Below are positions 13,431 through 55,900 of a stretch of DNA of 64,000 nucleotides, piece after piece. Both the position numbers and the translations under genes were made by a program. Each line of letters opens with the position of its first letter. Position 1 is the stretch's first letter. Below the pieces are notes generated by a model. The model was given only the letters and a program-made list of their open reading frames with translations. It ran no database searches and was not told the origin of the DNA. The DNA comes from Cornus controversa (Eukaryota; Streptophyta; Magnoliopsida; Cornales; Cornaceae): contig CM048845.1 of NCBI GenBank assembly GCA_026545225.1, forward strand, positions 118,857,033 through 118,921,032, written 5' to 3'.

Positions 13431-14589
13431 ACAATCATTATTTCTAATTTATTTTATATGTAAACAAAATTATATATTTATTTAATTTATTATTATTTTA
13501 TATAATTTGATTATTATTATTTTATCATTATTTTATATGATTTGATTATCTAGTAATGTACATAAAACTTCCATTTAGTTTCAAAAACATGCAAAAAACT
13601 TCTTTTATGTTCACTTTGCAACTTTGTAATTTTAAAAATGTGCAAATTAACCATTCTAGACTATAAACACATTTTAAGTTTCAATTTTACCCTTTTACAT
13701 AATTTCTTAATATTTTCAACAATAGCAAATTTATTCTTTTATATACTTTTTTAAAAATATTAATTTAATTATAAATAAAATATTCTTATTTTATTATTAT
13801 TTCGTGGCCGAGCAAAAAAAAACATCTTCATTGTTTTTTTTCTTTGGCAAAATAAAAAAAAAATCTTCATTGTTAAAAAAAACATTTGACATTACTTAAT
13901 TTTTTAATATTTTCAACAATAAAAATTTTATTTTATATATATATATATATTTAAAATATTAATTTAATTATATATAAAATATTATTGTTTTATTATCATT
14001 TCATGGCCAAGCAAAAATATTTTTAAAAAATTTTCATTGTTTTCAAATTATCTCTTTTCTGGCATTGTTTAAAAAAATGTATATTTTAAACAATAATAAT
14101 TGTTCTATGTTACTTGTGTTAATTACCTGTTGAATTATACGAAAACTATATAACCCTAATTATAAATTCATTAAAAAATTAAAAAAAATTGTATCAATAG
14201 AATTCCATTGATATCATCAATGACAACCATTGTCATCACCACCATATTGTATGCATACATTATCTAATAGTAAATTAATTTCAATTAAAACAGAGACTAT
14301 TATTAAATTGGATAAAATGCTCTAACACTTTTTAAGTTTTTGTTTATTGTTCTGAGATAATACTTGTGTCAAAAATTACTCTAACACTTCACCCCTCGAG
14401 ATTTAGTTTAACTAGCCCTAACACTTATTTATGCCAAAACTATTATTCTTTTTTACTTTTTTTTTTTGTTTTCTTTTTCCTTCTCTCCACACCTGTTATT
14501 CCTTTCCCTCTCTCATTTATTGGGGATATATGTTTGAAATGTTATTTTATAAATTCTTAATACTGTTATATTTTATATATTTAAATATT

Positions 14590-17541
14590 ATACAACAACA
14601 TCAAGATTCAGTTCAGGATAATGAATTTTGGTCTCTAATCCCAAACAAGATCAGTACTGAAATGAATGCAAGCCTTCTCAAAACAGGTACTGAAGAGGAA
14701 CTTTTCTCAGCCATTTCTTCTATGAGGCCATACAAAGCTCCTGGCCTTGATGGGCTTACCCCTTTATTTTTCCAATCAAACTGGAGCTCTTTAAAATCCG
14801 ACCTTCTTTTGGGCTTCAATTCCTTCTTATCAGGTGGTCACCTTCTAAAATCACTCAACCACACCAATATTGTTCTCATTCCAAAACTCAGAGGACCAAC
14901 CAAAATTTCTCAATTCCGTCCTATCTCACTGTGCAATGTGGTTTATAAGATTTTCTCCAAGGTGATTGCTAATAGATTAAAATCAATTCTCCCCAGCATC
15001 ATCAGCGAGAACCAATCGGCCTTCGTCCCTGGTCGTCTTCTCCACGACAATGCAATTCTAGCCCATGAACTCTTGCACTCCATGAAAACCAGCAGAAAGA
15101 AATTAAAATACCTTGCCCTCAAGCTGGATATGTCAAAAGCCTTTGATAGAGTAGAGTGGCTTTTTTTGAAAGAAATGTTCAGAAGATTGGGCTTTGCAGA
15201 TCAGTGGACCAACTTGGTAATGGAATGCATTTCCACAGTATCCTACTCGCTGGTGATCAACGGAGAAAGTGGTGATCTTTTTCATCCCCAAAGAGGTCTC
15301 CGTCAAGGCGATCCCCTTTCCCCATATCTTTTCTTGATCTGTACTGAAGGCCTCTCTATCCTTCTCCAAGAAGCAGAGCGACATCAACTCATAAGAGGCA
15401 TGCCCATGGGTAGAAACTGTGATCCAATCAATCATTTATTTTTTGTGGATGATGCGCTCCTGTTATGCGAAGCTTCCTTTCCCCAAGCTACAAACCTAAA
15501 AAACATCCTCTCAAGGTATGGCTCTCTTACTGGCCAAGTTATAAACTTTGACAAATCAAGCCTCTATTTCAGTAAAAATGCTAGCTTGCAGCTTCGAGAC
15601 CAAATCAAGAGAATCCTGCACATCCACAATGTCGATTGGATCAACAAATATCTTGGACTACCATCCATTCTTGGCAGGTCTAAACGCTTCACCTTCAACT
15701 ATATTCTAAACCAAACTTCTTCCAAAATCAAAACTCTTAAGGGAGAGTTCCTCTCCAAAGCCGGCCGGGAAGTTTTGCTGAAATCAGTTATATCTGCCCT
15801 TCCTAACCATTCCATGTTGAGCTTTAAATTGCCAAAAACTACCCTCAATACTCTCAATAGCAACATGCTCAATTTCTGGTGGAGCGGTAAATCAAAATCA
15901 AACAAAATCAAATGGATAAGCTGGTCCAAATTATGTGAGTCTAAGGAAAATGGGGGTCTGGGCTTCAGAAATCTAGAAACATTCAATCTTGCCCTGCTTG
16001 CAAAAACTGCGTGGAAACTTGAGACGGGGGATAACTCTTTGCTCTTTCGAACTCTCAAACAAAGGTATTTTCGAAATTGCAGTTTCATTAGCTCTTCCTG
16101 TTCGATAGGTGCCTCATGGATATGGCGCAGCCTTCACGAAACCAAACAGATCATTAGACAAGGCCTCAAATGGAGAGTTGGTAATGGCAATTCAATTGAT
16201 TGCTGGGTGGACCCTTGGCTTCCAGGCATCTCAAATCTCAAAGTTTCTTCAGCCTATAATGGAGGGGAGATCCACAAAGTCTCCGATCTTATTGACCATT
16301 CCAATCACACATGGAACACTTCGGCTGTTCTTAGTTCCTTCAATTCCAGTGATAGCACTCGAATTTTCCAAATCCCTCTCAGCCATGTCGATAGACCTGA
16401 TTCAAAAATCTGGGCTCTCACACCAAATGGCCACTTCACAGTTAAAAGTGCATATTACGCTGCTCTCTCAATGTTGAATCCTCAGCATATTGATTTTTCT
16501 GACTTGAAATTTATATGGAAATCCATTTGGAGAACTCAAGCGCCAAGAAAGCTTCAATTTTTTCTATGGCAAACTCTCCATGGCCGCCTCTCAGTTAATC
16601 AAATTCTTTATACAATGGGCATCAAGGATAATGCTATTTGCACAACATGTAATTGTGATGATGAATCCATTGATCATCTCCTATGCCTCTGTCCTCTCAC
16701 TCTTCAGGTCTGGAAGCTTAGCCCCCTGCGATTGGATTTCTCGGACTCTCCTCCAATGAACTGGCTTCAAAGATGGACTAACCTCACTTTCATGTGGAAA
16801 AGCCAAAACTGCTTAATTGAAAAGGCTAGCCTTGCTGCATTTATCTGTTGGAACATTTGAAAAAATAGGAATGCCCTTGTCTTCTCTAACAAACAGATCG
16901 ATAACCCTCTTATCATAGCCGATAAAGCTCTTCAAGAATTCAATGAATTCTCTGATCTTCAACAGAAAGAAACCAATTTGGAGTCTCAAATTCATTCTCA
17001 TAGGCTATCTTCACCGCGCTGGACTGCTCCATCAGAAGGATTTGTTAAATTAAATTTTGACGCTTCATTTGATGCCTCCTCACATTGTGCCGGAGGAGGT
17101 CTTGTTCTGAGAAATCATGAAGGTATCCTAATGCGATCAATTGCCTTGATTTTCCATAATGTTTGCTCAGCTACAGTTGCAGAAGCTCTTACTCTTCGTG
17201 CTGCTTTACAATCCTGCCTCCATTGGGGTCTCACAAAAATCTCCATTGAAGGCGATTGTCAAACCGTTATTAACCTTCGAATCACCGAAGAAGCATTATC
17301 CACGATAACTATGGATATTCGTAACTTACTTCAGAGGGGTGATAATCTCTCTCTCCACTGGACCCAAAGATCCAGCAATCGAGTCGCTCACGAAATCAGC
17401 AAGTTTGCTCTAAGAGATTCTTCTTTTGACTCTATTTTAGACTTGGGGCTTTCTCTTCCTCCTCGTGTGAGAGAAGCCTTATTTGATGACGGTTGCTTTG
17501 TCTTTTAATCCATTGTTTTGTCTTGCCAAAAAAAAAAAAAA
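14590..17541 (+). mobile_element. L1-type LINE, 5'-truncated, with RT, zinc-knuckle and RNase H
   Basis: A plant non-LTR retrotransposon lacking ORF1 and the endonuclease. The frame starts inside the pre-RT region (PYKAPGLDGLTPLFFQ at about 14727). The RT core follows: LIPKLRGPTKISQFRPISLC (about 14875), ALKLDMSKAFDRVEW (about 15115), RGLRQGDPLSPYLF (about 15294) and the catalytic FVDD at 15442-15453. A C-terminal zf-RVT zinc-knuckle region (LWQTLHGRLSVNQ ... CTTCNCDDESIDHLLCLCP) lies at about 16565-16700. An RNase H of the RVT_3 type begins at about 17040 (VKLNFDASFDASSHCAGGG) and the frame ends at 17508. One in-frame TGA at 16858, where the family has WNIW, separates RT and RNase H; otherwise the frame is intact for about 960 codons. 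A short 3' UTR ends in a poly-A run at 17528-17541. The clean frame suggests recent insertion. No target duplication was found, and the 5' boundary is approximate. Confidence 0.93.
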
Positions 17542-37658: not shown

Positions 37659-38027
37659 ATTATAGGACAGCTTTGTCTGGTGATGGGATGTTGACAAGAC
37701 GACACAAAGATACCGAGAGGCTAACCATCTTGCATCAAGAAAGAGTGCACACAGGAGACCATCTTGCTTAGAAAGTGGGTTATGAGAGATTGGGTTTGTA
37801 AAATCATTTTATTTTGTGAGATCAATTGGGCATTCTTGTAGAAGGGCATTCTGGACATTTTTGGCTACTATTTGCATGATGTAAGCAATTTGACTGTTGA
37901 CAATGATATGAGAGACTAAAGTGATGTATAATTTCAAACTTCAGGGGTGTAAAAGTCGATACACAAACGTGAGGGGATCAGATTGGCATATGGATAAACC
38001 TCAGGGGGTCAAAATGTATTTTGTCCT
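37659..38027. other. Right flank of hAT element, TIR-like end
   Basis: The end, reverse-complemented, reads ggacaaaatacattttgacc then ccctgaggttt, the same style as the MULE-like element at 20342-22041. The sequence continues the block broken by the hAT insertion. A matching left end was not found. Confidence 0.4.
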
Positions 38028-38400
38028 AATATATATTAATTATTAAAAAAAAATTATATTACATAAATACTTCAATTCATCAAAAGCAATTAAGAACCAA
38101 ACAAACTTATAAATAAAAATAGACAAATAGATTAAAGAACTAGACTTATTTAGTCCTCTATATATATTTAGGTTAGATTTTAATTATAATTTAGTCACAT
38201 AAAATTTTCTTTCAAAATACTTGTATATATATCACTAGCTCACTGCTACGAAGTGTCCATCACGTATTAAAGGAGTGTCCAATGAGTGTCCGAGAGGTGC
38301 CTAAAGAGTGTTCGAGAAAGAAAAATATCTTGTGTCCAAATGTCCAACACGGGTACAACACCTTCGATGAAGTGTCCATATCTTCTATCTTTTTTGTATT
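38028..38400. repeat. Dispersed repeat, copy B (pair with 8880-9365)
   Basis: Near-identical to 8935-9365: shared words include aacaaacttataaa, agacaaatagattaaa and cagacttatttagtc/ctagacttatttagtc. It ends in a run of 'agtgtcc' words at 38260-38375. Confidence 0.75.
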
Positions 38401-38693
38401 CTAAACTTGAAAAGTGATAAATAAGAAAGAGTTGACAGCAAACAAACAAGCATGAATGAATGAAGTTAACATTAATCATTTATACATACTCCAAACCAAA
38501 AAAAAATAAAGAGCAAGTAAGGTGTGGTGTTGTCATGAATTTTTCTTTTGTTTTTTTTTTATTTTTAAAATTAATAAAATTACATTACTTATGGGGAAAA
38601 ATATCACATCATCACAATTGCATATATTGTTTGTTTTTTGTTTTTTATTCTCTGATAGGCGATTGACAACACTAGAGTTCGTGATTAGCACGT

Positions 38694-39353
38694 TGTCACG
38701 GACTTAGAGTTTCCTAAGCACTCGTGCGGCCTTAGACACTTTCAAGCGCCCTTGAAGTGCTAAGTCAGCCTATCCGAATTGCTAGTTTAGTAAAGACTAA
38801 GGCTAGACAAATGAAGAAAGAGAAGTTAGGCAAAGTGAGCAAGAGAGAGTTTGAGAGAATGTAAAGAACTTGTATTGCACTTGAGAACTCTTACAAAGCT
38901 TGGTAGCTTGGGTGAGGAGCAAATGAACTCCCACCTCCTTATATAGGCACTTGGCCTTACAATAAATGACTAGGATATGTACAAGTGTCAACAATCTAAT
39001 GGTTAGGAGAATTCTAGAATAAGTTTCTAGAAAGCTCCATAGAAATATCTCTACAATACTAGACGTCTCTAGAAACTTCTATACAATTCTAGAGTGTCCT
39101 ATACAATTTTAGAATACTCCATATAAATCTAGAAAGTTCTAGAAAATACTAGAGAACTCCACACAAGTCTAGAGAGTTCCACACAATTATAAAATGTTTC
39201 ACACAATTCTAGAGAATTCTGGAAGAATCCACACTTGTGTAGAAAAGTCTAGAATGTTCCGGAAGCTTCCTCCATGCAGACTCTCATGTCATCATCCTGT
39301 TGCGCGCGCGCGTGGCGACTGTGTGGCATAGCTTCTAATTGCGGGACGTGACA
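38694..39353. mobile_element. Probable solo LTR (fossil)
   Basis: A 660-bp insertion relative to PIG-H copies 2 and 3. It starts TGTCACGGAC and ends GGGACGTGACA, so it has TG...CA ends inside a short inverted repeat (TGTCACG/CGTGACA). It is flanked by ACGT on both sides (38690-38693 and 39354-39357), while the empty site in the other copies reads agcacgtgctcc. A TATA-like cttatatagg occurs at about 38937. No internal retroelement genes are adjacent, so it looks like a solo LTR of an LTR retrotransposon, of moderate age. The family is not identified. Confidence 0.65.
39040..39260. repeat. Degenerate TCTAGA-rich short repeat array
   Basis: Inside the LTR-like insertion, words of the form (t/a)ctaga(a/g)..(t)cc with acacaa or atacaa spacers recur about every 20 bp, with variation, for roughly 200 bp. 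Confidence 0.65.
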
Positions 39354-40155
39354 ACGTGCTCCTGAACATTAGAATATTTAATGGACCAATTAGGGTTGTG
39401 AAACCCAAAAAGTTTGAAATGCAAAGAATGAGCCGTTTGTAAGCTTTGAGCCTCTCTATCTCTTTATATACAGTATTTATTTTTTTTTGTGTGTATATAT
39501 ATATATATGCGGGTTATCTAAAACTCAAATCAAACTGTGTCACTTCTTGCTAAGCTGAACTAAATGAAACTTAGATATACAATTTGAGAACGCATAACTG
39601 ATATTCAGAGATTATTTTTGGTCATCTATGACGTTCCTTGCTTTGCGAGCAAGGTATTTCCCAAACCACACTGTAATCGCAATTTTCGATTGATCACCCA
39701 GTGAAACCTTCAAATTCTTCGCATATGTTTGTTTGATGCACTTTTTGGTATTATTTATCAATTTTGATTTTGTATTTGAGAAATAAACCAAAACTCATTG
39801 GTATAAAATCAATTCGAGCCTTGTTTATTACTTTATGTGATTTTTTCCCTCTTATATTTGCGAATGTAGGTGGAGGAAATAATGATTTGAATGCACAAGT
39901 TTGAAAATGGCAGAGTCCTGTATTGCAAGTGCGAGATATACTTATATGTATGATGTCAAAAAGCGGCATCTTGAAGCAAACCACACACATATTGTAGTTC
40001 GAAAGAGCTTTGTGAAGGGTTTCGTCGTATACCTATGCACTATTTTTCTTATAACTAATGCTTCATTTCTCTTTTTGTTAAAGGTATATATGATTGTGTC
40101 TGCTGATTTTTTTATCTTCACTTATAGTACATTCCAATCACCTATATAATATAAT

Positions 40156-41036
40156 TAGGGCGGCAAATGAGCCGAGTCGTTTGCGAACAATTTGGACTCG
40201 ACTCGTTAAGAGCTCAGCTCGCATTCGTTTATTTAATAAACGAACCTAGCTCAAACAGGATTATGAAGCTCGATTTGTAAACGAGCCGAGTTTGAACAAT
40301 ATGATATAAACAGAGCTTGATGACAAGATTGATTACAAAACATATATATATATATATATATCTATGTGTGTGTGTATATATAACAAGCATATAACTTTAG
40401 CCCAGCCCAACCAAATCAATAAAATGGACAAAATCCAAGAGAATTAACATAGCTCGAACCTAAGCCCATGTTCTGAAAGCCCATCTCTATATATATTCTT
40501 TAACTACTCAATTCCTCTCCACCCTAGCCGCACAGCCGGCACTCCTCTCTCCACATCCTAAGTCCCAATTCACGACCGCCGATCTGTATTTTGTGTTTGC
40601 TCTCTCTCTCTCTCGTGGCATGGGAGGACGGTGACGATGGCTTTGGCGAGATCGGAGCAGTGGCTTTGACGAGATCGGTGATTTTTCAGGTATTTCTCCT
40701 TTTTATAATTTTGTATGAAATTTCTTTTGATGGAAACTTAGTTTTAGACAGATATGTGCATTGTGCATATGCGTGTGAAATATGTGTATGACAGATCTGT
40801 GCATGTGTGTGTAATGTGTGTGATAGATCTGTGCATGTGTGTGTTTTGTGTGTATCTGTATCTCTATACGAGTTTCGAGCCGAGCTCGAAAAGCTCGTGA
40901 ACCTGACCAAGCCGAGCTCGAACACTTGAGGTCGGAGCTCGATTCGAGCTCGAACACCATCCTACACTGTCGTACACTGTCGAGCCGAGTTCAAACATGC
41001 CACTATTCGGCTCGGCTCGATTCGATTGCAGCCCTA
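40156..41036. mobile_element. hAT-like element inserted in PIG-H copy 1
   Basis: Ends TAGGGCGGCAA and, reverse-complemented, TAGGGCTGCAA. It is absent from the same place in copies 2 and 3 (tataatataatcataccc). Both ends are dense in gagctcg/cgagcc words, a subterminal-motif pattern like that of the 35732 element but with a different word. Flanks are AT-rich and only an imperfect target duplication can be made out. About 880 bp, no transposase. Confidence 0.75.
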
Positions 41037-41405
41037 TAATTTATAATCATACCCATACTCTCACCCACCCACACACTCCATTTTCATCGTCACCATCATT
41101 ACCTTCGGTAGGTCAACATTTACCCGTTTGCCCATAATCTAGTGAAACTGGGCTCATTTGGGAACTGTAGTCTTTGGCATATTGAAGAATAAATGAATTT
41201 TTTTTAGTTCTATTTAGAATTTCATCCTCATTGTTACTTGGGAAAATTAATTTGACGATACCTCAAGCCTTTTGACATACATATTTTTTTTTAATTTTTT
41301 TTGTAAATTATATTGATAAAGAGAAATAGAAAATGAAGGTAGAATATTTAAATTACCAGGGACCTATAACATCCAAGAGTTTTACATGAAATAAATACTT
41401 GTTAT

Positions 41406-43184
41406 GGCCTGTTTGGTTGGCCTGTTATTGGTTTTGTGTTATGTTATAATTTTTTTGGCTCAAAACATGTTTGGGTTGTGTTGGTTTGGTTTCAAAAGTC
41501 TAAAAACAATAACAATTTTGGCCCAAAATCTGTATCACCGAATCCATGATATTGTTATGTTTTTATCACTGTAGCGGCCCAACTCCATATTAGTCACTGT
41601 AGCGGAGGAAACGCGATCTAACTTAACACACATAAAGTGCAACACATACAAAAACGCGTCTGAAAACACCGAGTTCATTTTTGCCTGATATTTCTCTCTC
41701 TTCGCTCTGGAATTAAAAGGGTTTTCTGAATGAATGTGAGAGAGAAGGGGATTTACGCATCAAAGGCAATTACAGAGGAATTAAGAGGGTTTTCTGAAAC
41801 TTACCTTGATTTGCGATGATTTAATCCAATTTCTCAACCAAACTTTTCAATGACAGCCACAGTTGAGAGAAGATGTCAATGACAACCAAGAGTTTTGAGC
41901 GTGAATCGCTGACCAAGTTGAGAACAAAAGGCTTTGTGGTCCTTCAACCAAGATTAGGGTTGTTGAGAGTGAATCGCCTTTGAATCGCCGAATGGAGTTG
42001 AGAGTGAAATGAAGAATCGGGCCAAGGCCCACTGTTTTCATTTTTTGATTTTGTGTGTGATGCGGGTGTTGCCTCCGCTACAGTAAATTTACATAACTGT
42101 TATTGATTTTGGGCTAGAAAATTTACAAACCATAACAATATCAGGACTGTTTGGATAGCCTGTTTTGTTGTTGTTTTGGTGTTATGTTTTCTAGTTTTGG
42201 GCCCAAAACATGTTTGGCAGGTGGGTGATATGGTTTGAAAGTTCAAAAAGGGTATCAATTTGGGCCCAAAACTCATATCATCCAATACATGATATTGTTA
42301 TGATTTATAAATTTTCTAGCCCAAAATCAATAACGGTTATGTAAATTTACTGTAGCGGAGGCAGCATCACACACAAAACCAAAAAATGAAAACAGTGTGC
42401 CAGGCCCGATCCTTCATTTTGCTCTCAACTCCATTCGGCGATTCACTCTCAACAACCCTAATCTTGGTTGAACGACCAGAGAACCCTTCATTTTCAACTT
42501 GGTCGGCGATTCACGCTCAAAACTCTTGGCTGTCGTTGAAAAGTTTGGTTGAAAAATTAGATTAAATCATCTCAAATCAACGTAAGTTTCAGAAATTCCT
42601 CTGTAATTGCCTTGTATGCGTAAATCCCCTTCTCTCTCTCATTCATTCTTGATTCATAGGGTTCCATGTATATATATATATTCTATTATGCTTATATACA
42701 TGTATATGTGTATATACTTTAATTTCCTTATGGGGAATAATGTATCATATTTTTTTTTTATTATCTTGGTTTATTGGCTTATGAATATTGTTTATTGAAT
42801 CTTTACTTGTGTGTTTTTGTTTTAAGGTTTCTTTGGGTCTGTTCTTTACAATGTGTCCACTTCAATTATTATTTTTTAATTAAATCCTCCTGTACGATCG
42901 TAAACTAGTTTTTTTTTTGTTGAAGTTAGTTTCACTCCTTTTCTTTGAGCATTGATCTCCTAATTGGATGGTGGATTCTAATATTGAATAATTATTAATT
43001 GTTAATAAAGTCATAAATTAAACCACTTGTATATATCATCTATCCAAGAGTTCTAGGTGATGGTGATACTAGACCCAAATAGATATTTTTTTAGATTTTT
43101 CAAACCATATCATCACCAGCTAAACATGTTTTGGGCCCAAAACTTGAAAACATAACACCAAAACAATAACAAAAGAGGCTATCC
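41406..43184. mobile_element. Two head-to-head TIR elements forming a large hairpin
   Basis: Three related termini are present: 41406 forward (ggcctgtttggttggcctgt), about 42144 forward (ggactgtttggatagcctgt) and 43184 reverse (ggatagcctcttttgttatt). All run into ttttgggcccaaaacatgtt-like sequence and later (c)actgtagcggagg. The inner parts are inverted copies of each other: 41715-42144 pairs with 42288-42655 across a spacer of about 145 bp. The arms contain an exon-like stretch ending in a donor-like caag/gtaagtttcag. No transposase was seen. The superfamily is uncertain (MULE-, hAT- or Harbinger-like ends). Confidence 0.75.
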
Positions 43185-44765
43185 AATGAATCCACTTAAA
43201 AGTATGCTCCACAAAAGGATGATAATTGATTTGTCTTGTTGATTACAAAATCATCATGTCAGATATTACTACAATTTACACATAACTCATGTCTTTTTAT
43301 AACTTCTGATATAATAACTTTAAAAATATATAACAAGTATTTATTTCATGAAGATTTCTTGTATGTTATAGGTCCATGATAATTTAAATAGTCTTCCTTC
43401 ATTTCCTGTTTCTGTTTATCAATATAATTTACAAAAAAAATTTAGGAAAAAATATATATGTTCAAAGGCTTGAGGTATCGTCAAATTAATTTTCTCAAGT
43501 AACAATGAGGATGAAATTCTAAATAGAACTAAAAAAAAATCCATTTTAGTGATTCTTCAGAATCCCAAAGACTAAGTAGTACATTGCTAATGAGCCAATA
43601 CAAAATGAGAAAAAGAGAGCTCCCAAATGAGCTCAGTTTCACTAGATTATGGGCAAACGAGTAAATGTTGACCTACCGAAGGTAATGATGGTGATGATGA
43701 AAATGGAGTGTGTGGGTGGGTGAGAGTATAGGTATGATTATATTATATAGGTGGTTGGAATGTACTATAAGTGAAGATAAAAAAATCAGCAGAGACAATC
43801 ATATATACCTTCAGCAAAAAGAGAAAGGAGGCATTAGTTATAAGAAAAATAGCGGATAGGTATACGACGAAACCCTTCACAAAGCTCTTTTGAACTACAA
43901 TATGGTGTGTGTCGATTGCTTCAAGAGGCCGCTTTTTGACATCATGCATATAAGTATATCTCGCATTTGCAATACAGGAATCTGCCATTTTCAAACTTGT
44001 GCATTCAGATCATTTTTTCCTCCACCTACATTCGCAAATATAAGAGGGAAAAAATCACATAAAGTAATGAACAAGGCTCGAATTGATTTTATACTTGTGA
44101 GTTTTGGTTTATTTCTCAAATACAGAATCAAAATTAATAAATAATACCAAAAAGTGCATCAAACAAACATATGCGAATAATTTGAAGGTTTCACTGGGTG
44201 ATCAATCAGAAATTGCGATTACAGTGTGGTTTGGGAAATACCTTAATCGTAAAGCAAGCAACCCCATAGATGACCAAAAATAATCTCGAAAAATCAGTTA
44301 TGCGTTCTCAAATTGTATATCTAAGCTTCGCTTAGCTTAGCTTAGCGGGAAGTGATACAGATCGATTTGGGTTTTAGATAACCCGCATATATAAATATAT
44401 ATATATACTACAACAACAACAACAACCAAGCCTTTTCCCAATTACTTGGGGTCGGCTACATGAATCCGATGTTCCATTCCACTTTATTTAAGGTCATCTC
44501 CTCAGTTAAATCACATGCTATCATATCTTTCTTTACTACCTCTACCTATGTTAGCTTTGGTCTTCCTCTTCCCCTAGCATTGCCCTCAATTTGGACTATG
44601 TCACTTTTCTCAGCAAATGGCTCATTCTTTGCATTTCGAACTTTTTTGGGTTTCGGGACCCTAATTGGTCCATTCAATATTTCAATGTGAAGGAGCACGT
44701 GCTGATCACGAACTTCGGTGCCATCAATCACCTATCGGAGAATAAAAAACAAAAAACAAACAATA
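43185..44765 (-). pseudogene. PIG-H 5' module, copy 2 (inverted; exon 1 and start of exon 2)
   Basis: An inverted duplicate of the PIG-H 5' part. Exon 1 (43988-43809) reads MADSCIANARYTYMHDVKKR ... VYLSAIFLITNASFLFLLK, 60 codons, differing from the functional exon at five residues (E3D, S8N, L14M, R33Q, C45S), with the same splice donor. Intron 1 is present in full, and exon 2 begins (DKSIIILLWSILLSGFI equivalent) but is cut at 43185 after ggattcatt. The acceptor is altered (aacaag where the gene has aacag), which would shift the frame. The leader and putative leader intron are kept. The upstream border at about 44765 is where the next transposon-like block begins. Truncated, so not a functional gene. 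Confidence 0.9.
44409..44610 (-). mobile_element. 3' end of an RTE-type LINE
   Basis: On the minus strand a frame reads KSDIVQIEGNARGRGRPKLT, followed after a stop by VEVVKKDMIACDLTEEMTL, then noncoding sequence ending in a (gtt)n tail. This is the C terminus and tail typical of plant RTE-clade LINEs. It is present only in PIG-H copy 2; copies 1 and 3 have a CT/TA-rich tract here. Confidence 0.7.
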
Positions 44766-44987
44766 TAATTGTTATGTTTTGTAATTTTTCTTGCCCAATT
44801 CTATAACATGTACTGTAGCGGAGGAAACAATAACGCCCTAATCGCATCACATATAAAAATCAAAACTAAAAACATTTTGGTCATTTTTGACCTAAATTTA
44901 TCTCTCCTCGCTGTGGCGATTTGAAGGCGATTCATGTTGGAAGCCCTAGTTTATTACATTTTCGGCAAGAAGACCAAGGTCTTGGCT

Positions 44988-45230
44988 ATGGGGAGAACCC
45001 TAGACGTTGAGAGCCTCATGAATGTTTTCGCCAATCAGATGACTTCGCAGCAATGGGACGACATGAAGACGCTCTTCGAGTTCTGGATTAGGTCACTGGA
45101 CAGCCACGGGAAGCCCAATAGGCCTGACCTGAGCTTGTACAATCACAACCTGAGGGCTAATCAGATGATCAAATCGTTGGCCGACGAGTTGCTGGATCTG
45201 GTGGCGCAAATGGAGAACTATGACATCAGT
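44988..45230 (+). pseudogene. PPR protein gene fragment (At1g26460-like)
   Basis: About 80 codons read MGRTLDVESLMNVFANQMTS, then QQWDDMKTLFEFWIRSLD, then GKPNRPDLSLYNHNLRAN and LADELLDLVAQMENYDIS. From memory this closely matches the N-terminal region of the plant mitochondrial pentatricopeptide repeat protein related to Arabidopsis At1g26460. Homology stops at a gttaag, and the frame then runs into unrelated sequence. The PPR repeats themselves are absent, so it is a fragment. The upstream codons (MLEALVYYIFGKKTKVLA) do not look like a mitochondrial presequence and may come from the element. Confidence 0.7.
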
Positions 45231-45648
45231 GTTAAGTTTTCATGGATCTCCCAGTTTTACATAAACAGGGTTAGGGTTTTAGTTCTCAAGCCTTCTTGGA
45301 TCTCTCTCTTTCATTACCTCGATGTGTTTGTACACTGAAAGGTGGGATTGAAGTTTTACAAGGGTTTTGTTGATGAATAATCTGTTATAGAATGTGAGCT
45401 CCATTTAAACATCATTGAAAAATTGGCTTAATTGATGGGTTCTTTTGGTTTATTTGTATCATGTTGTGAAAGTTGAGGTTAGGGTTTTTATCAGTTGATT
45501 TGATATGACTTCTCTGGAATCATACTTTGATGTATTGGAGTTAGGGATACAGTTTCTATTGGCTTTATTGTTCAGCTTTCATTGTTGAACTAAATTGAAG
45601 CTTTGTTGTGTTGAAGCCTTGAAAGGGAAGATCAATCTAAGGTGCCCA

Positions 45649-45991
45649 ATGGGATTTTCTTCTTTCTTCCGTACTGAAAATGCGAGTAAGCTTTTGGGGT
45701 CAACGCCTCATGATCAGCTCCTAATTCAGACCTCGTATTCATTTTCTGGGTTGCTTTTGTTTGCAATTGGTTTTCTTCTCTTCACGGTGGCATTTGTTAA
45801 GGACAAAGTTTCAGTGCTTCTTTGCTAAGGGGTGTGTAATTATTCATGTTTCCATGGCAATTTGGAGGGTTTACTTTGAGAGGAAGCTTGGAGATCTTGC
45901 CCATGATTGGCTGAGGCAGGTTGCTGGAGACACTGCCTTGGCACTTTCATGGGTTTTCGTTTTTGTATACTTGGGGAGGAAGTATGATTAA
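45649..45991 (+). pseudogene. Small plant membrane protein copy, frameshifted
   Basis: The first frame, from ATG 45649, reads MGFSSFFRTENASKLLGSTP, then DQLLIQTSYSFSGLLLFAIG and FLLFTVAFVKD. The continuation FQCFFAKGCVIIHVSMAIWR, then VYFERKLGDLAHDWLRQ and ALALSWVFVFVYLGRKYD, is in another frame, so there is a frameshift around 45800-45815. Together they describe a protein of about 115 residues with three or so membrane segments, a size and style I associate with an uncharacterised plant membrane protein; I cannot name it. UTR-like sequence follows, suggesting a genomic copy. It lies 0.4 kb from the PPR fragment and between TIR-element ends, so capture is likely. A live gene with an assembly error is the alternative. 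Confidence 0.6.
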
Positions 45992-46868
45992 CCACAGAGG
46001 GGGAACTGCAATGTATCTGTAAACCTTAAATTTGAGCTGAGTGGCATTTCTAAATAGAATTGTATCTGGAGACATTGAATGAAACTGATTTAGGACAGCG
46101 TTAAATTAGGTGTTGGAGTGGTTTTTGCTCTACTCTGTTGAATTTCATTTGGGTGTTGAATTGAAAGAGAGGCAAAAACAAAGCAAGGATAAAATCCTTG
46201 GTTCATGAGTTTGCTTGAATATTGTTTAACATCTTGAATGTCGCTGCTTTGGAAAAAATGAAGACTGCGCAGCTGGAATTGGGGTTTTAGAATGTTTGCT
46301 TGAATTTGAGCTAGATTATGGGAGTTAAGTGTAGTTGCTTTTCATGTTGTGGATAGAAAATATTACTCCTGTTGCCTTTGTATAATTGTTTCCTTGCATG
46401 TTTTTCTTCAAATTAAATGGATATGCTCTTACTCTTAGTTTCTTGGCTAATTGTTGTTCACTTCTGTGAAAGTGGTTTTTGATTGCATCTAAACCCAATG
46501 AAGTGATAATTATGAAGTAGAGGGGAAAATGTTAGACAATTAATTGGCTTCATGATTGGGTTAGCAATTTAAAAAAAAAAATCATAACAATACACTGTCA
46601 ATTTTTTTATAAAAATATTAACAAAGATTTGCCAAAACAAATTCGCAACAGGTAGAGCTACCAAACATTTTTTTAGTGTTTTGACATCGAATTCCTCAAA
46701 ACGCATTGACGTTACCAAACATGTTATGCATTTTCTATTTTTGTAAATCATGAAACACAACAATATTACCAAACGCGTTGTCCATTAATATTCAAAACAC
46801 TAATATAACATAACACATGTTATGTTATTTGCTAAAACAAAAACCAATATCAAAACACGCATCCAAAC

Positions 46869-47444
46869 GGGGCCTATATTGTTTGTTTTTTGTTTTTTAT
46901 TCTCCGATTGGTGATTGACAGCACCAGAGTTCGTGATCAGCACGTGCTCCCAAAAAAGTTTGAAATGCAAAGAATGAGCCGTTTGTTGGGGCTTTGAGCC
47001 TCTCTCTCTCTCTATATATACATTATTTATTTGTGTGTATATATATATTTATATATGCGGGTTATCTAAAACCCAAATCGAATTATATCACTTCCTGCTA
47101 AGCGAAGCTTAGATATACAATTTGGGAACGCATAACTGATTTTCAGAAATTATTTTTGGTCATCTATGGCGTTGCTTGCTTTACGATCAAGGTATTTCCC
47201 AAACCACACTGTAATCACAATTATTGATTGATCACCTAGTGAAACCTTCAAATTCTTCGCATATTTTTGTTTGATGCACCTTTTGGTATTATTTATCAAT
47301 TTTGATTATGTATTTGAGAAATAAACCAAAACTCATAGGTATAAAATCAATTCGAGCCTTGTTCATTACTTTATGTGATTTTTTCCCTCTTATATTTGCG
47401 AATGTAGGTGGAGTAAATAATGATCTGAATGCACAAGTTTGAAA
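46869..47444 (+). promoter_or_regulatory. PIG-H upstream region and putative leader intron
   Basis: This is the upstream part of the triplicated module at the functional locus. A CT tract and tatatata tracts lie at 47000-47055. A likely leader exon ends ...gatcaag/gtatttccc at about 47191 and the intron would end gcgaatgtag/gtgg at about 47407, just before the start codon. Copies 1 and 2 keep both sites. The start of the block at 46869 abuts a transposon terminus. Promoter function is inferred, not seen. Confidence 0.5.
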
Positions 47445-50400
47445 ATGGCAGAGTCCTGTATTGCAAGTGCGAGATATACTTATTTACATGATGTCAAAAA
47501 ACGGCCTCTTGAAGCAATCGACACACACCATATTGTAGTTCGAAAGAGCTTTGTGAAGGGGTTCGTCGTATACCTATGCGCTATTTTTCTTATAACTAAT
47601 GCCTCCTTTCTCTTTTTGCTGAAGGTATATGTGATTGTCTCTGCTGATTTTTTTATCTTCACTTGTAGTACATTCCAACCACCTATATAATATAATCATA
47701 CCCATACTCTCACACACTCCATTTTCATCATCACCATCATTACCTTCGGTAGGTCAACATTTACTCGTTTGCCCATAATCTAGTGAAACTGGGCTCATTT
47801 GGGAGCTGTCTTTTTCTCATTTTGTGTTGATGTATTAGCATCAACACAAAAAAAAAAAAGGATTTTTTTTTATAGTTATATTTAGAATTTCATCCTCATT
47901 GTTACTCAGGAAAATTAATTTGACGATACCTCAAGCCTTTTGACATACATATTTTTTTGTAAATTATATTGATAAACAGAAACATGAAATGAAGGAAGAA
48001 TATTTAAATTATCAGGGACCTATAACATCCAAGAGTTCTACATGAAATAAATACTTGTTATATATTTTTAAAGTTATTATATCATAAGTTATAAAAAGAC
48101 ATTAGTTATGTGTAAATTGTAGTAATATCTGACATGATGACTTTGTAATCAACAGGACAAATCAATTATCTTCCTTTTGTGGAGCATACTTTTAAGTGGA
48201 TTCATTGTCAAACAATTCATTCGGAAGCCCATTGAGAAAGGTGAGAATCTGGAAAACAGGCTCTCTCTTTTGACAATACTTGTGCATATTAAATTTAACT
48301 GGATCATCTTAATTTATTGTGTACTGGTTTGTCACATGTTCTCCTTGTCTAGGATTTTCTTATTTTAATACAAGAAAGTGTAGAAGCTGGTTGGAGTGTT
48401 GAGATTTTGGAGTCAATTTCCTGTCAAGAATTGGCATTGTCTAAATTCTATTGACCACCTATGACTAAAGTTGTCTGGTACCAATTTGGGCATTCAAATT
48501 AGTCTTATCTTTATCTGCTCCAAAATTCTGCGGAAGTATAACCCGCACTGGTAGTATAGTGGTAAGGGGCTAACCTGGGGTGAACTGTAAGCTCGGACTT
48601 TTTGGGTTCGACTCTTGCATGATGCAAACACCCAAACTTCACCGATATGTGTGCTTTGCGGGTATTTGCACATATCCGGGGTTTACCTTGTAGTCCCATG
48701 TACCAAAGGTCACCAGGTTGGAAGAGTTGCATGTTTTTTTTTTTTTAAAAGAAAGTCTGCAGAAGTACATTTGTATTGTGCTTTTTTGTCTTTGGACTTG
48801 TTACAAAGTTATTATTTCCTGAGTGTTAAGTACTTTAGGATGCATTGCTCAACAACCCATGGTGTTTTGTTTAAAATATATATGTCCAATACATTTTTAG
48901 TTGACTAATGAAGATTACTTTGTTATTCTTCCAAATAACACATTCAGAAGGACACATAAACATCATTCGTGTTACTTGGACTCTCTAATTTCCTTCAACA
49001 TACCTGTATTGACCCGGCACGACATTGATATAGGTATGGGATCTGTGTTTGGAACTTGTATTCATATCAGATACCTGGATTCTCTAATTGTGATGATGGA
49101 AGAAGTAAAATACATTCATGATAGCAAAAAAAAGGTTTTTCACTTATGAGATAGATGGAATTTTTTCTCACCGTATTTCATTTAATTCAAATCATCATTC
49201 AGTACGTTTTCAAAGAATAATGGTATCATGCATTAACACTTTTATGCAGTATATTATGTATTAAGTGTAGAAGATGCGTCCCCATACCTGTATCCAACTT
49301 TGGAACACATTTCAATTCGAGTCCTTGTATACTAAAATTTGGGTTTTAGGGAGGTCCAACACTTCAACACATAGCCGACATAGTCGCACCAGATACATGT
49401 ACATGAGTCCATGTAACATAGTACATCATTAAAATAAATAATATATATGAAAGCATTTAACTATTTATTGTCTTACTTTGTAAAGTTTTTTTATTCTTTC
49501 AGGAACGTAGAACTATAAAGTAATTTCTTTTTATTTGCTACAAATTGTAAATATTATGGTGGTTGCTTTTCATCTTTGAAATGTGGGGCTTATGTTAAAA
49601 AGTCTTTGCAATGTGGGATTTATAAACAGTATCCATCTAGATAATATTCTCTGGTTTAAGTCATTGAATAAAAAGATTGGGCCGCGGAGGAGGAGGGCTG
49701 TAATGTGATTTATTTATTTATTTTGTTGAGTAGAGAGCTGTAAATTGTAGCCTATTGTCAAATTCTAGTCTGGACACCTAGGATCCTTCTAATCGCCGAA
49801 GTGTTGGTTGCCTGGACCATTCCATGCCAGGAACTTTTGAGCTTTTCAAAACATGGTTTATATGTTTGTTTTATACTGGGCCTTCATCTAAATATTTATT
49901 AACTTAGATAAGTAACTAAAATGCATTTTGAATTTTAGAAGTAGATATTGAACTCAAACCCAACATTATAATTTGACTCGCCATCTCTTATATTTTTATC
50001 TTCTTGTTCAATCGCTTATTTTTATTTTTTTCATTTTTTTTTTTTGCTTAAAAATTCCGTTTTAATTTTTAATCACCTCTTGGAACTCTGTCGATCATCA
50101 TTAGTGCATTTATACTGTTCTAACTCTCATTTTCTTCTTCAAACTATTGCTTCTTGATTTAGGAGACTTGCACAAATATTCTTTCCTGTTCCTTAAGTTT
50201 TTTTAAAATGATAGATTCTTGAATGAAAAATATGTACCAAAGGATTTTCATATTGTTCCGAGTCAGTACCTGGGCTCACCTGGGTAACCCAATGGTCTGG
50301 GTTCATTGCCTAAGGTTGCCTAGGCTATCTGGCAACTATGTATCTTACTAATGTATTGTATTAAAACAAGTCTTTTATATATTACAATTTACAAATAATA

Positions 50401-51888
50401 AATTCTTTTTCTTTTTAATTAGATCCTTGCAATTAAAGAATAACACGCTTCTTACTTTAAGTTTACCGTGAGCTGTATGTTCCATAAGATGTGTGGTATT
50501 TTATGGGGAGAGATTGTTGTTATTGTTAAGTTCCGCACGTCTTTTGCCCTTTTTCCCATTTTATCCAAAAATGAAAAGCTAGCATAGAATACTGCATGTA
50601 TTGTTTCATTTTGGGAAAGCATTTTTGAAATATTAAACTTTGTTTTGTGTTGTGATGTTTCAGAGTCTGTCATAATTTTCCCAGCTTTTGGAGTCCAACT
50701 TGAAACTCAGTATGGAAGGTACTTCTTAGCATTGTCATGTGTGAGAATTTTCAATTCATTGGGGAAGTGAATTTAACTAACTACTATTTGCAAATTCATG
50801 TCATGGAGTATCCTGCTAAATAAGGAAAAGTCGGTTAGGGGGCATAGCATGCTTATTTTGAATATCATTTGATGTTCAGAACAGATTTGGAAGGGTAACA
50901 TTTAGTACAGATGCCTCCAAATCTTAGAAAGTTTTTGTTCACTATAGAATTAGAACGACCATGAGTTCCTTTGTGTATGAAATTCATATATAGTATCACA
51001 TGAGGACTATCTGCTGTAGAAATATATTGAATTTGGCATTGAGTAGACTTCCGTAGGTTTTTCTTTTCTTTGGGCTTGCCTGTCATTTTTGGTAATGAAG
51101 TTAATTCTTCTGCAGCAAATTTATCAGCTACACTCTCCCTGCCCTATCTGTTATTTAAGACCTAACAATCTCCCAATCTTTCTACCCTAACAAAAATATG
51201 GCAAACCTTGCCTTGGCCCTTCCAGCTGACTTAGCAATGGCTGAGCAGTTCATATTTGGATCTCCTGTGTACTGTCAATTTCAAAGATCATGAAAGACTA
51301 GAATCATTGTTTTGTATTTTTGTATTTTTTTTTTCTTTTTGCCTTTTCTGATTTCCTAATAGGACCTCTCTCTCTCTCTCTTTTTTTTTTTCTTTTTTTC
51401 CCCCTCTATTTGTTTATACAGTGGGAGAACAATTCGCCGCTTTGTTCCTATTGACAAAATTTTGAAACCTGTGCTGAATGAGTGTGTGACCCCAGTTACT
51501 TGTTACTGGTGCTTGTCTCTGATTGTACGTGGGGAAGAAGAACTTATGTTAGTTTTCAAGGTAAAAATGATCTTGTTTCAAATGCACATTCTATACTTGT
51601 CAGGATATTCTGTTTGATGGGTGTAACTTGACAATAAAGAGATACAACTTGGTGGACGTTGTGGGTTGTACATGATGATTTATTATTGCCTATTAAAAGA
51701 TGAAGCAAATTATATGGAGAACCATTGTTGGTTCCTCTTTCTTTTTAAAGTTTATTCCATGTTTCTACTGGCTTACAAGGTTTGATCATTTACAGGAATT
51801 ACGGCCGCCTGTGAAAATGTTAGTACCCATCTGGAAGGCTTTGTGTGCTGCCACTGATTGTCTAGAAACCGGAGAATCAGTTACATAA
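47445..51888 (+). CDS. PIGH: PIG-H, GPI-GlcNAc transferase subunit, complete
   Basis: PIG-H is a subunit of the ER complex that transfers GlcNAc from UDP-GlcNAc to phosphatidylinositol, the first step of GPI-anchor synthesis. Exons: 47445-47624, 48156-48240, 50664-50718, 51422-51560 and 51796-51888, in phase with GT-AG sites, 552 nt or 183 residues, close to the family length. Two membrane segments lie at about 38-60 (FVVYLCAIFLITNASFLFLL) and 64-80 (IFLLWSILLSGFIV), followed by the PIG-H domain: ESVIIFPAFGVQLETQYGSG, RTIRRFVPIDKILKPVL, ECVTPVTCYW, GEEELMLVFKELRPPVKMLV and PIWKALCAATD. The start ATG is supported by its conservation in two duplicated copies upstream. Intron 2 is 2.4 kb and holds a SINE and a dispersed repeat. 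It converges with MLH3. Confidence 0.95.
48539..48755 (+). mobile_element. tRNA-derived SINE with target duplication
   Basis: The 5' end resembles a tRNA gene: A-box-like tagtatagtggtaagggg at about 48551 and B box gggttcgactc at 48603. A tRNA-unrelated body and a T-rich then A-rich tail (48734-48750) follow. TCTGCGGAAGTA (48527-48538) and TCTGCAGAAGTA (48756-48767) form a 12-bp target duplication with one mismatch. It sits in PIG-H intron 2, same strand as the gene. It differs from the plant Au SINE. Confidence 0.85.
49005..49430. repeat. Dispersed repeat family copy in PIG-H intron 2
   Basis: Shares an ordered set of words with 32135-32520 and 20085-20330: cctgtattgacccggcacga, ataggtatgggatctgtg, gatgatggaagaag, catgatagcaaaaaa, tgagatagatgg and finally gagtccatgtaacatag. 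Confidence 0.65.
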
Positions 51889-52974: not shown

Positions 52975-55900
52975 TCAACACTCATCTCCAGAAGAGCTTA
53001 AACGTTGTGCCGCACGTTCTACAGTGAGTTTATGTCGATGTAACCCATGCCACAGCTCATTCGTATCACCATTCTCCAATCCAAGCTTCCTTATCTGGTC
53101 ATGCAATGCCCCCAAATTGACAAGAGGAACAGTTGTTGGTCGCCCATGAGCACACTGCAGAGAAAATTCCACACAATTATTCAATAAGTCCTCTCTCTCT
53201 ACCTGTACAGTCAAATCCACAAAAATGACTAAGACGTCATCAACTCACTTGGAAACACAATGAGGTCAGCTTCAGCTCTTCAACAAGGAGAGAACATTCG
53301 GAAGGTAGCAACGTGTCCCCGAACATGATTGCACCTAAATAGTGAAACTAATAAGCAAAGTAACCATTTTCTTTTGTAAATCTGAAAAAGAACTACGTAT
53401 CACCAAATACACATGAAATTTGAAATGCTCCATGTGAAGTGCTAGTCACATGCAATGTTTAAGCTACATACAAACCATTTAATGTGACAAATCAATACTA
53501 AATTCACTTGCTCATTTTTCCAGCAATTATTTTTCATTGAGATGCGGATGACATACCTCTGCATGCTTTGAAACTAAGGATCCGAAGAACAGATGGTGGT
53601 ATTGTTGATGATCCATCAGTATCAGCCAGCTGAGGTTGTAATACAATTTAGAGTTAGTAAAAACATCAAATATGATATATAGAGGATAAAAAAGGATCCC
53701 TGGAAGAAAAGAAAAGATTTAGATAACAATAGAAAAGTCCAAAATTTCAGGACAACTCAAGGAAATGAAACAGAAAGCTCCACATCACCTGTTGAAGAAA
53801 TTCTAGAAGATCTATTTCACTTAAATTGACTCCCAATATACATGGAACCTGCATGTCCGCTAAAGAGAATTATTATGTCTAGTAATCATGATGAAATGGC
53901 TGACAAATTATGGGCAGACAGAACTGAAACACAAAAGAATACAAAACAAATTTCAATAAAATTTCAGAAAATGGCTGCCCAAGCAACATAATGCAACAAC
54001 AAAAGGTAGGATGGAGATATGATCCCTGAATGTCTATATGGTTTGTATGTCTTGAGAAGGTTTAAATAAATATACCACGGTAAGGAACCTTCATCGGATT
54101 TGATTCAATGTATTTGCATGCATGAGCACACGTGCACGCATAGCCTAAATGCATATCTTATTTTATTGCCATTTAAAGAAATTGATTGGTCAACATTACT
54201 TGAAAGGGAGCAACAAGAAGTTTTCTAGCAATAACATTTCCTTCACATGTATGTATATGTAACTAGATAATGGACAATTGGGAAGGTCAAAGGTGACTGA
54301 GCAGCTGATTTCAGCTTGCAAAAGGATTTGAATGCCTAAGTTACAACAACAACCAAAAAAAAAAAGGGATGGTGCTTTACCGCCAGGAGTGTGACAACAG
54401 ATGGCTGCCTGTGTAGAAGGTTCAAATTCCTGTAGAAAAAAAGAATTAGATAAACAAGGAAATTCCCAGCTAGTATATTAATTATGTAACAAGGACATTC
54501 CACATTCACGTATTCTATAGGTGTTATCAGCACAAATACTGCTTCAGTTATAGCCACTCATAACATACTTCATATCATTCTCAGGTCATTTTAATGGATA
54601 ACAACCCCCGAATTTGTTTCTTAGTACATAGATCATGAATAGGACTTCAACATTTGCCAAATGGTGAGACAGGAATTACTTCTTGAAGGACCTTGAATCA
54701 CGAGCATGAATGTTGCAGATCCAACCCCAATTTTGAACTTGCTCAGCATAATTGTGCAGTAACTGATAGCCAATCTCATGCAGGACCTGTTATGACATGT
54801 TTGAAGACAATGAAAATCAATACTGAAAGAGCTCGAGAATTTCAGAAACATGTAGAACTTAAAGCAGCTTTAGTGCCATAATCAGACCATGCCATATTGC
54901 ATGAAATGTACATACCAACTCTTGTTCCGCATCCAGATAGGTAATTGTCTTCATTTCTCCAGATAGCACCTAAGAATTTTACTAGTCTTCTGAGACAACT
55001 TGATTATCAATTAAAAAAATAATAATAAATTAAATTTACAAAAGCATTTACCTTGTGACGCAGTTCTTCCAGTCGGATCCTTTCATCAGCGGCATGCTGT
55101 AAGAGACAACCACTGCCAAAAGTCATAAATATAGCCAAATGCCTGCAGCAGGCTGCAGCAACTCAACCATGTGTATATGTTTCTATGTGTGCACATGCAT
55201 TTTCACATACGGAAAAGTAAGCCCACAAAGGTTCGGACAGGTGTTTACACATACAAATATGTTTTTCTAGGCATATTTGTATGTCTGAAAGCTCTTTTTT
55301 TATTAATGCTGATGTCAATTCCCAGTTACAAATTCTCATACAAGAAACTTTTGTCAGGATCAATGTCTCCGGTGCCCTTTTAAGACTCCAGACTCTTACA
55401 CAAATGTGATGCAATAATGGGTCAAATGCATGCATAATTTACGATGCGAATGTCAACTTAGATGCAAACATAAAAATATCGTTTAGCAAGCATCACAATT
55501 CAATGTCATCAAGAAATAGAAAAAATAGAAGCTGCATCTTAAGAAAATAAATAGAAAAATAAACGTGCACAGACCTGGTCGATAATAGCAAGTACTTCAC
55601 CGGCCACAACTGGAATGAATTTCTTATCCACCTGTTGCAGAACTTTGGCCTTTTCCAGACAATTCTTGTTGATAGATTCAGGAACTAATGAGTCACCAGA
55701 AAGGTGCAAGAGCCCAGAAAAGATGTTAAGTATAGAATCCTGGTTGTGAAGGTTTTGTGATCTGTCTCCATTCTGTATAATGAAGGAAGATTAAAAACCA
55801 CAAATTTTGTAACTTAAGGAACCCAATTTCTTATAGTGAACTGCAATAGTAGCAAAATATATCATTTGAAACTGTTAAGGGAGGCAATTCTAAGGTACTC

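Follow-up and report, generated by a model that had tools for sequence, protein, structure and literature searches.

Three partial copies of the PIG-H 5′ region, mostly bounded by transposon sequence, at a single locus of Cornus controversa

The stretch of 64,000 nucleotides of Cornus controversa analysed here (contig CM048845.1, positions 118,857,033 to 118,921,032; hereafter the window) contains a PIG-H gene and two further copies of its 5′ region. PIG-H is a subunit of the glycosylphosphatidylinositol (GPI)-N-acetylglucosamine transferase; its gene, a GPI-anchor gene, is probably essential in the plant. The three 5′ segments, called copies A, B and C in their order along the window, are arranged in direct-inverted-direct order, as the initial annotation had claimed from the letters alone: comparison of the window with itself by BLAST matched the segments in pairs (E-values from 6.5e-16 to 0), and three-way alignments confirmed both their number and their order. 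We tentatively explain this locus by an old local and partial duplication of PIG-H that was aided by transposon ends, through reversed-ends alternative transposition, and that left A and B as non-functional copies beside C, the gene. This origin appears somewhat more likely to us than duplication by DNA repair alone.

Three PIG-H 5′ segments of unequal length

The leader, a leader intron, coding exon 1, its GT donor and intron-1 sequence are present in all three copies, in agreement with the initial description. With inserts excluded, the copies are 90.6–93.4% identical to each other (A–B, 1075/1186, 90.6%; A–C, 1065/1161, 91.7%; B–C, 1200/1285, 93.4%; the counts take in a few flanking bases at the 5′ edges of the segments). 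The length and identity of these alignments exclude a chance likeness, including the chance sharing of exon 1 alone. All three segments begin at a common 5′ edge, TATATTGTTTG (TATATTG). The locations and strands first assigned to them stood, with edges now refined (Table 1), and their 3′ limits turned out to be unequal: A stops in intron 1, whereas B spans the whole of intron 1 and ~52 nt of exon 2, passing the 3′ edge of A by 146 bp. In copy C, homology to A stops at ~48061 and homology to B at ~48207. The special promoter/exon-1 module architecture that had been envisaged is not supported, the copies being unequal fragments that have transposon sequence at most of their borders and carry insertions. 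These inserts (two in A and one in B) were missing from the first description, and the triplication stands with them.

Copy C is the only one of the three that belongs to a complete gene with a complete protein. Its five coding exons, with GT/AG at the joints, form a spliced frame of 552 nt without internal stops, encoding 183 amino acids, of which residues 90–153 match PF10181 (E = 1.1e-20, profile positions 1–67 of 67). The statement that only the last copy is joined to exons 3–5 is correct as far as the complete gene is concerned, but C is joined to exon 2 as well, and B holds ~52 nt of that exon. The exon-2 acceptor AG of B is altered by one base, and an AG persists one base downstream. 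Searched against the genome, the PIG-H protein gave six matches, all within this locus; a second PIG-H locus, wanted as an ancestral comparison, was thus not found in the 772-Mb genome. No solved relative was detected by sequence at E-values up to 0.1, and neither Rfam (gathering score) nor ARAGORN (bacterial code) gave a match. Upstream of the gene, the sequence of C suggests that only about 140 bp of native DNA lie between transposon DNA and its TATA-like stretch (recognised by eye, as was that of A).

A genome search with the segment as a query (772 Mb in 61 contigs, all 33 candidates scored) returned 37 matches, 7 of them at the locus. The other 30 are 35–66 bp long and fall in a CT/TA-rich stretch (query positions 124–200), so that no further long copy of the segment was found in the genome outside the locus. 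Pack-type elements carry gene pieces, and a mobile carrier of this type could have been imagined for PIG-H; since no long copy of PIG-H pieces occurs elsewhere in this search, there is no sign of mobilisation.

Table 1. Features of the PIG-H locus (window coordinates).
Feature	Position	Strand	Remarks
5′ flank of copy A, candidate ancestral PIG-H upstream flank	38395-38622 (228 bp)	+	own-genome query 37900-38625
Copy A	38623-41405	+	leader, leader intron, exon 1, part of intron 1; self-BLAST and alignments
Solo-long terminal repeat (LTR)-like insert in A	38694-39353	+	TG..CA ends, 4-bp target duplication ACGT; absent from B and C
Exon 1 of copy A	39907-40083	+	open, 59 codons, one in-frame codon deleted, GT donor retained
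Miniature inverted-repeat transposable element (MITE)-like insert in intron 1 of A	40158-41034	+	ends GGGCGGC.. and ..GCAGCCC; absent from B and C
Transposable element (TE) 1, end region of a repeat family	41406-41710 (305 bp)	+	terminus (T)GGCCTGTTTGG abuts A
Inverted TE2-family element	41728-42143 and 43044-43186	-	terminus short of ~8 bp abuts B; relatives L016-L018
TE2, nested in the inverted TE2-family element	42144-43043	+	relatives L016-L018
Copy B	44767-43187	-	leader through ~52 nt of exon 2; self-BLAST and alignments
Exon 1 of copy B	43988-43809	-	open
High-copy repeat in B (short interspersed nuclear element (SINE)-like)	~44413-44609 (~197 bp)	-	at the site of the TATA-like stretch of A and C
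TE3, chimeric element with captured gene pieces	44770-46559	+	~150 bp of left terminus missing
End region of another repeat family	46560-46874, inner limit approximate	-	terminus GGCCCCGTTTGG abuts C
Copy C	46875-48207	+	part of the complete gene; self-BLAST and alignments
PIG-H gene	47445-51888	+	coding exons 47445-47624, 48156-48240, 50664-50718, 51422-51560, 51796-51888

Transposon ends at the borders of the copies

Copies A and C are direct copies, with ~1.2 kb duplicated, separated by a spacer of ~5.5 kb (41406–46874). The outer ends of this spacer are outward-facing transposon termini, joined to the breakpoints within one base (41405/41406 and 46874/46875). Both termini are of the same 12-bp type, GGGYCYGTTTGG, and the sequence beside the 5′ edges of both B and C is repeat. 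The window contains 15 motifs of this type (both strands, at most two mismatches, the two edge termini included), from which the probability of their chance coincidence with both edges can be put, post hoc, at about 1e-7. Copies of the two families show that the edge termini are true element ends: the TE1 end is shared by six of the seven family loci fetched (L027 and L029–L034, with L030 as the exception), and the end motif of the GGCCCCGTTTGG family matches in 10 of 13 fetched loci, an eleventh being recognisable by eye. The sizes of the repeat families are lower bounds, the best 40 of 166 and the best 40 of 352 candidates having been scored in the searches with spacer elements.

Several repeat subfamilies in this genome combine the 12-bp end with an end region of ~300 bp, followed by variable interiors. 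A CACTAT-like word stands beside the family ends at several loci, two of which (L053 and L054) share eight letters, and these recurring flank letters may reflect a target preference. From their terminal motifs and structure these elements may be PIF/Harbinger-like or Pack-type.

The junctions of B are less exact. Its 3′ edge, in exon 2, joins a TE2-family end short of ~8 bp, and its 5′ edge adjoins the interior of TE3, ~150 bp from the terminus as judged from two relatives (L036 and L038) that extend ~150 bp further, to a terminus. TE3 is chimeric, with pieces from at least two places in the genome, as in the Pack-type elements mentioned above: positions 44996–45226 resemble a place on contig C4 (L052), positions 45219–46468 resemble a DUF7865 gene on contig C3 (L037), whose copy there has stretches of 78 and 91 bp missing from TE3, and the left half has a relative with 92% identity on contig C5 (L036). 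By its composition, TE3 indicates that gene-capturing elements exist in this genome.

Three further ideas on these elements were rejected. A formerly direct B could have been inverted together with the missing end of TE3, but the end next to B (43074–43186) is closer to the TE2 family (GGATAGCC.., 83–86% identity with seven of eight loci and 79% with the eighth) than to the TE3 relatives L036 (82%, GGTTGGCC..) and L038 (80%, GGTTATCT..), to which TE3 itself is 92% and 91% identical, respectively. The margin in favour of the TE2 family is modest, the TE1-type locus L030 being also 83% identical to this end. For the TE2 relative L018, a flanking 9-bp target duplication was considered and discarded, its letters being repeated within L016 and L017. 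Finally, A, B and the elements between them do not form a single palindrome, the flanking elements being ~80% identical over 99 bp vs ~91% for A and B.

Order of events and alternative explanations

The polarity of the events, as we read it in the sequence, rests on the 5′ flank of copy A. With positions 37900–38625 as a query against the genome, all non-self matches among the best 40 of 2774 candidates lie in a common repeat (38026–38394), and the 228 bp adjoining A have no second match among them. For this reason it is probable, though not sure, that A has kept the 5′ flank of the ancestral locus and C its 3′ side. The ancestral order would have been U-M-D (U, upstream flank; M, duplicated segment; D, downstream exons); U would still be found next to A, and D next to C. 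Reversed-ends alternative transposition would then have placed transposon ends at the TATATTG site in the 5′ flank of PIG-H, producing U-A-[element]-C-D. In a maize study (PMC3744419), the old target site survives intact in the first copy after such transposition; in the second it adjoins a transposon end. The inner junctions of the direct duplication are outward transposon termini, as expected for this mechanism.

C is the most likely template of copy B, which would have arisen with or after the event that separated A and C: B shares the common 5′ edge, reaches beyond the 3′ edge of A and is nearest to C (noncoding Kimura two-parameter distances: B–C, 0.079; A–C, 0.090; A–B, 0.105). The inverted copy could have arisen through aberrant transposition or break repair, either in that same event or later; sister-chromatid transposition can yield flanking inverted duplications, according to PMC3744419. 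Later insertions into the copies would have followed. The LTR-like insert of A has at least 41 matches including itself, the near-full-length ones being 88–97% identical (best 40 of 228 candidates), and several of the relatives listed are paired ~5.4 kb apart. It differs by ~3% from its nearest relatives among these matches and thus probably postdates the duplication. The insert of B has at least 40 matches including itself, the others being 93–97% identical and most having the same starting base (best 40 of 2266 candidates). We presume from motifs and structure that it is a SINE and, likewise from terminal motifs and structure rather than from a repeat library, that the insert in intron 1 of A is a MITE.

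The fate of A and B was assessed in exon 1, which is open in all three copies (59 codons in A, 60 in B and 60 in C). Synonymous and nonsynonymous changes number 4 and 5 in the A lineage, 0 and 4 in B and 2 and 2 in C, for 41 synonymous and 139 nonsynonymous sites, the gapped codon of A being set aside; B looks unconstrained. Private changes are fewest in C (27, vs 44 in B and 52 in A, the longest branch). We consider it very probable from these sequences that A and B are inert, non-functional fragments, although the open exon 1 in all three means that their decay is not proven.

Several points weigh against a transposon-driven origin, the open exons among them. The ancestral status of the flank of A depends on the best 40 of 2774 candidates. 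The two outer termini come from different subfamilies with a common 12-bp end, and the junctions of B are inexact, the adjoining termini lacking ~8 bp and ~150 bp. The expected donor element is not at the far end of C, which is continuous through 48061, so that under reversed-ends transposition the donor must have excised. In the sources available to us, alternative transposition is documented for Ac/Ds, hAT relatives and P elements, and the superfamily of the elements found here is not settled. The strongest competitor, to which we give a substantial but lesser chance, is that the copies were made during replication or break repair (patch repair, template switching or end joining), the transposon pieces being filler or later ordinary insertions, with no involvement of a transposase and with A and B equally non-functional. 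It would agree with the position of the B junctions inside transposon sequence and with the short identities at the breakpoints, namely TTG, common to the B/TE junction and exon 2, and TATAT, common to the A–C breakpoints (C around 48061 and the 5′ edge of A). Rice also provides a set of tandem duplications of more than 1 kb that is attributed to patch repair (PMC7971508). Under repair alone, however, the presence of two outward transposon termini at both A–C breakpoints would be a coincidence.

The other explanations concern a function of the copies, or their reality. Copy A could serve as an alternative first exon with its own promoter; splicing across 8 kb onto exon 2 at 48156 would then yield a PIG-H isoform with a variant N-terminus. 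Its open exon 1 with a single in-frame codon deletion, its intact donor and leader-intron signals and its ratio of 4 synonymous to 5 nonsynonymous changes would fit such a role, but A has a solo LTR in the 5′ region, a MITE-like insert in the intron and the longest branch, and 9 substitutions in 177 nt cannot tell constraint from chance; we regard this isoform as unlikely. Still less probable in our view is that the inverted pairs A/B or B/C form a hairpin RNA that gives rise to small interfering RNAs (siRNAs) silencing or tuning PIG-H, in the way that GmIRCHS acts on chalcone synthase. The inverted arms exceed 1 kb, the longest exact B–C match is 81 nt, and of the 426 21-mers of the assumed 5′ mRNA of C, 100 occur exactly in B (either strand) and 55 in A. 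In the A lineage, C-to-T/G-to-A changes are in excess at CG/CHG sites (11/77 vs 13/255 at CHH sites, p = 0.011), as methylation would leave, but there is no such excess in B (3/68 vs 13/256, p = 1) and none that is significant in C (4/66 vs 6/248, p = 0.23); these p values, from tests on three lineages, are uncorrected. The case for hairpin silencing is weak because the spacers measure ~1.8 kb (A–B) and ~2.1 kb (B–C), vs 78 bp in GmIRCHS (PMC13051633). An assembly artefact, with haplotype copies or a misjoin mistaken for a triplication, had been named as a possible refutation and seems the least probable explanation of all: the 7–9% divergence of the copies and their different insertions, which are unlike unmerged haplotypes, make it unlikely, the contig is chromosome-sized (C1, 129 Mb), and the search of the 61 contigs gave no further long copy.

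Gene neighbourhood, comparable systems and significance

Elsewhere in the window, a homeodomain gene (PF00046, 32819–33394), which we take to be WOX-like, lies upstream of the PIG-H locus, and positions 53000–53157, without a Pfam match, presumably encode an MLH3-like C-terminus. The order of the homeodomain gene, PIG-H and the MLH3-like gene corresponds to Arabidopsis AT4G35520-35550, which suggests a conserved neighbourhood. A reverse transcriptase (RVT_1, zf-RVT) followed by an RNase H-like frame (RVT_3) at 14422–17508 presumably belongs to a long interspersed nuclear element, and a GDI-family exon on the minus strand (PF00996, 4788–5657) is assumed to be Rab-escort-like.

Among known systems, the tandem direct duplications produced by Ac/fAc at maize P1-rr resemble the A–C pair: as described in PMC3744419, the first copy is continuous with the old flank, the inner junction is a transposon terminus at the target site and a transposon lies between the copies. 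The Cornus locus differs from them by the type of element, by its size (~1.2 kb vs ~460 kb and 5.3 Mb in two maize alleles), by the extra inverted copy and by the donor element missing in C. The maize allele bz1-m4-D6856 (PMC4270019) is likewise a partial triplication split by transposons (Ds in maize) with one truncated copy, an insertion near the 5′ untranslated region and the expected donor element missing; its copies are tandem and direct and associated with Ds, whereas here the middle copy is inverted and other elements are involved. Soybean GmIRCHS similarly consists of truncated gene copies, ~1.1 kb long and inverted, close to a complete member of the gene family. Its copies are arranged tail-to-tail with a 78-bp spacing next to a captured promoter, and double-stranded RNA was detected (PMC13051633); these features distinguish it from the Cornus locus as seen in the sequence. 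An inverted repeat of target-gene sequence is found at the Cornus locus; close spacing of the arms is not.

The locus is a new natural example of an already known kind of rearrangement. A more specific interpretation, possible but rather doubtful, would see in it a retained natural product of alternative transposition by non-Ac elements: reversed-ends transposition would have made the direct duplication of the 5′ part of the gene, and a second aberrant event, such as sister-chromatid transposition, would have added the inverted copy B. The working gene would thereby have lost its ancestral upstream region and kept ~140 bp of native promoter behind transposon DNA. With siRNA production from the inverted copies, this would be a young self-targeting locus; otherwise, the copies would be ordinary gene-fragment debris in a transposon-rich plant genome. 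If the transposon-driven origin is correct, the locus would be a still legible trace of duplication driven by transposon ends in a system other than maize Ac/Ds, and it would lie at a gene for which an essential role is expected. It would also indicate how a single-copy gene can survive such an event with its upstream region exchanged.

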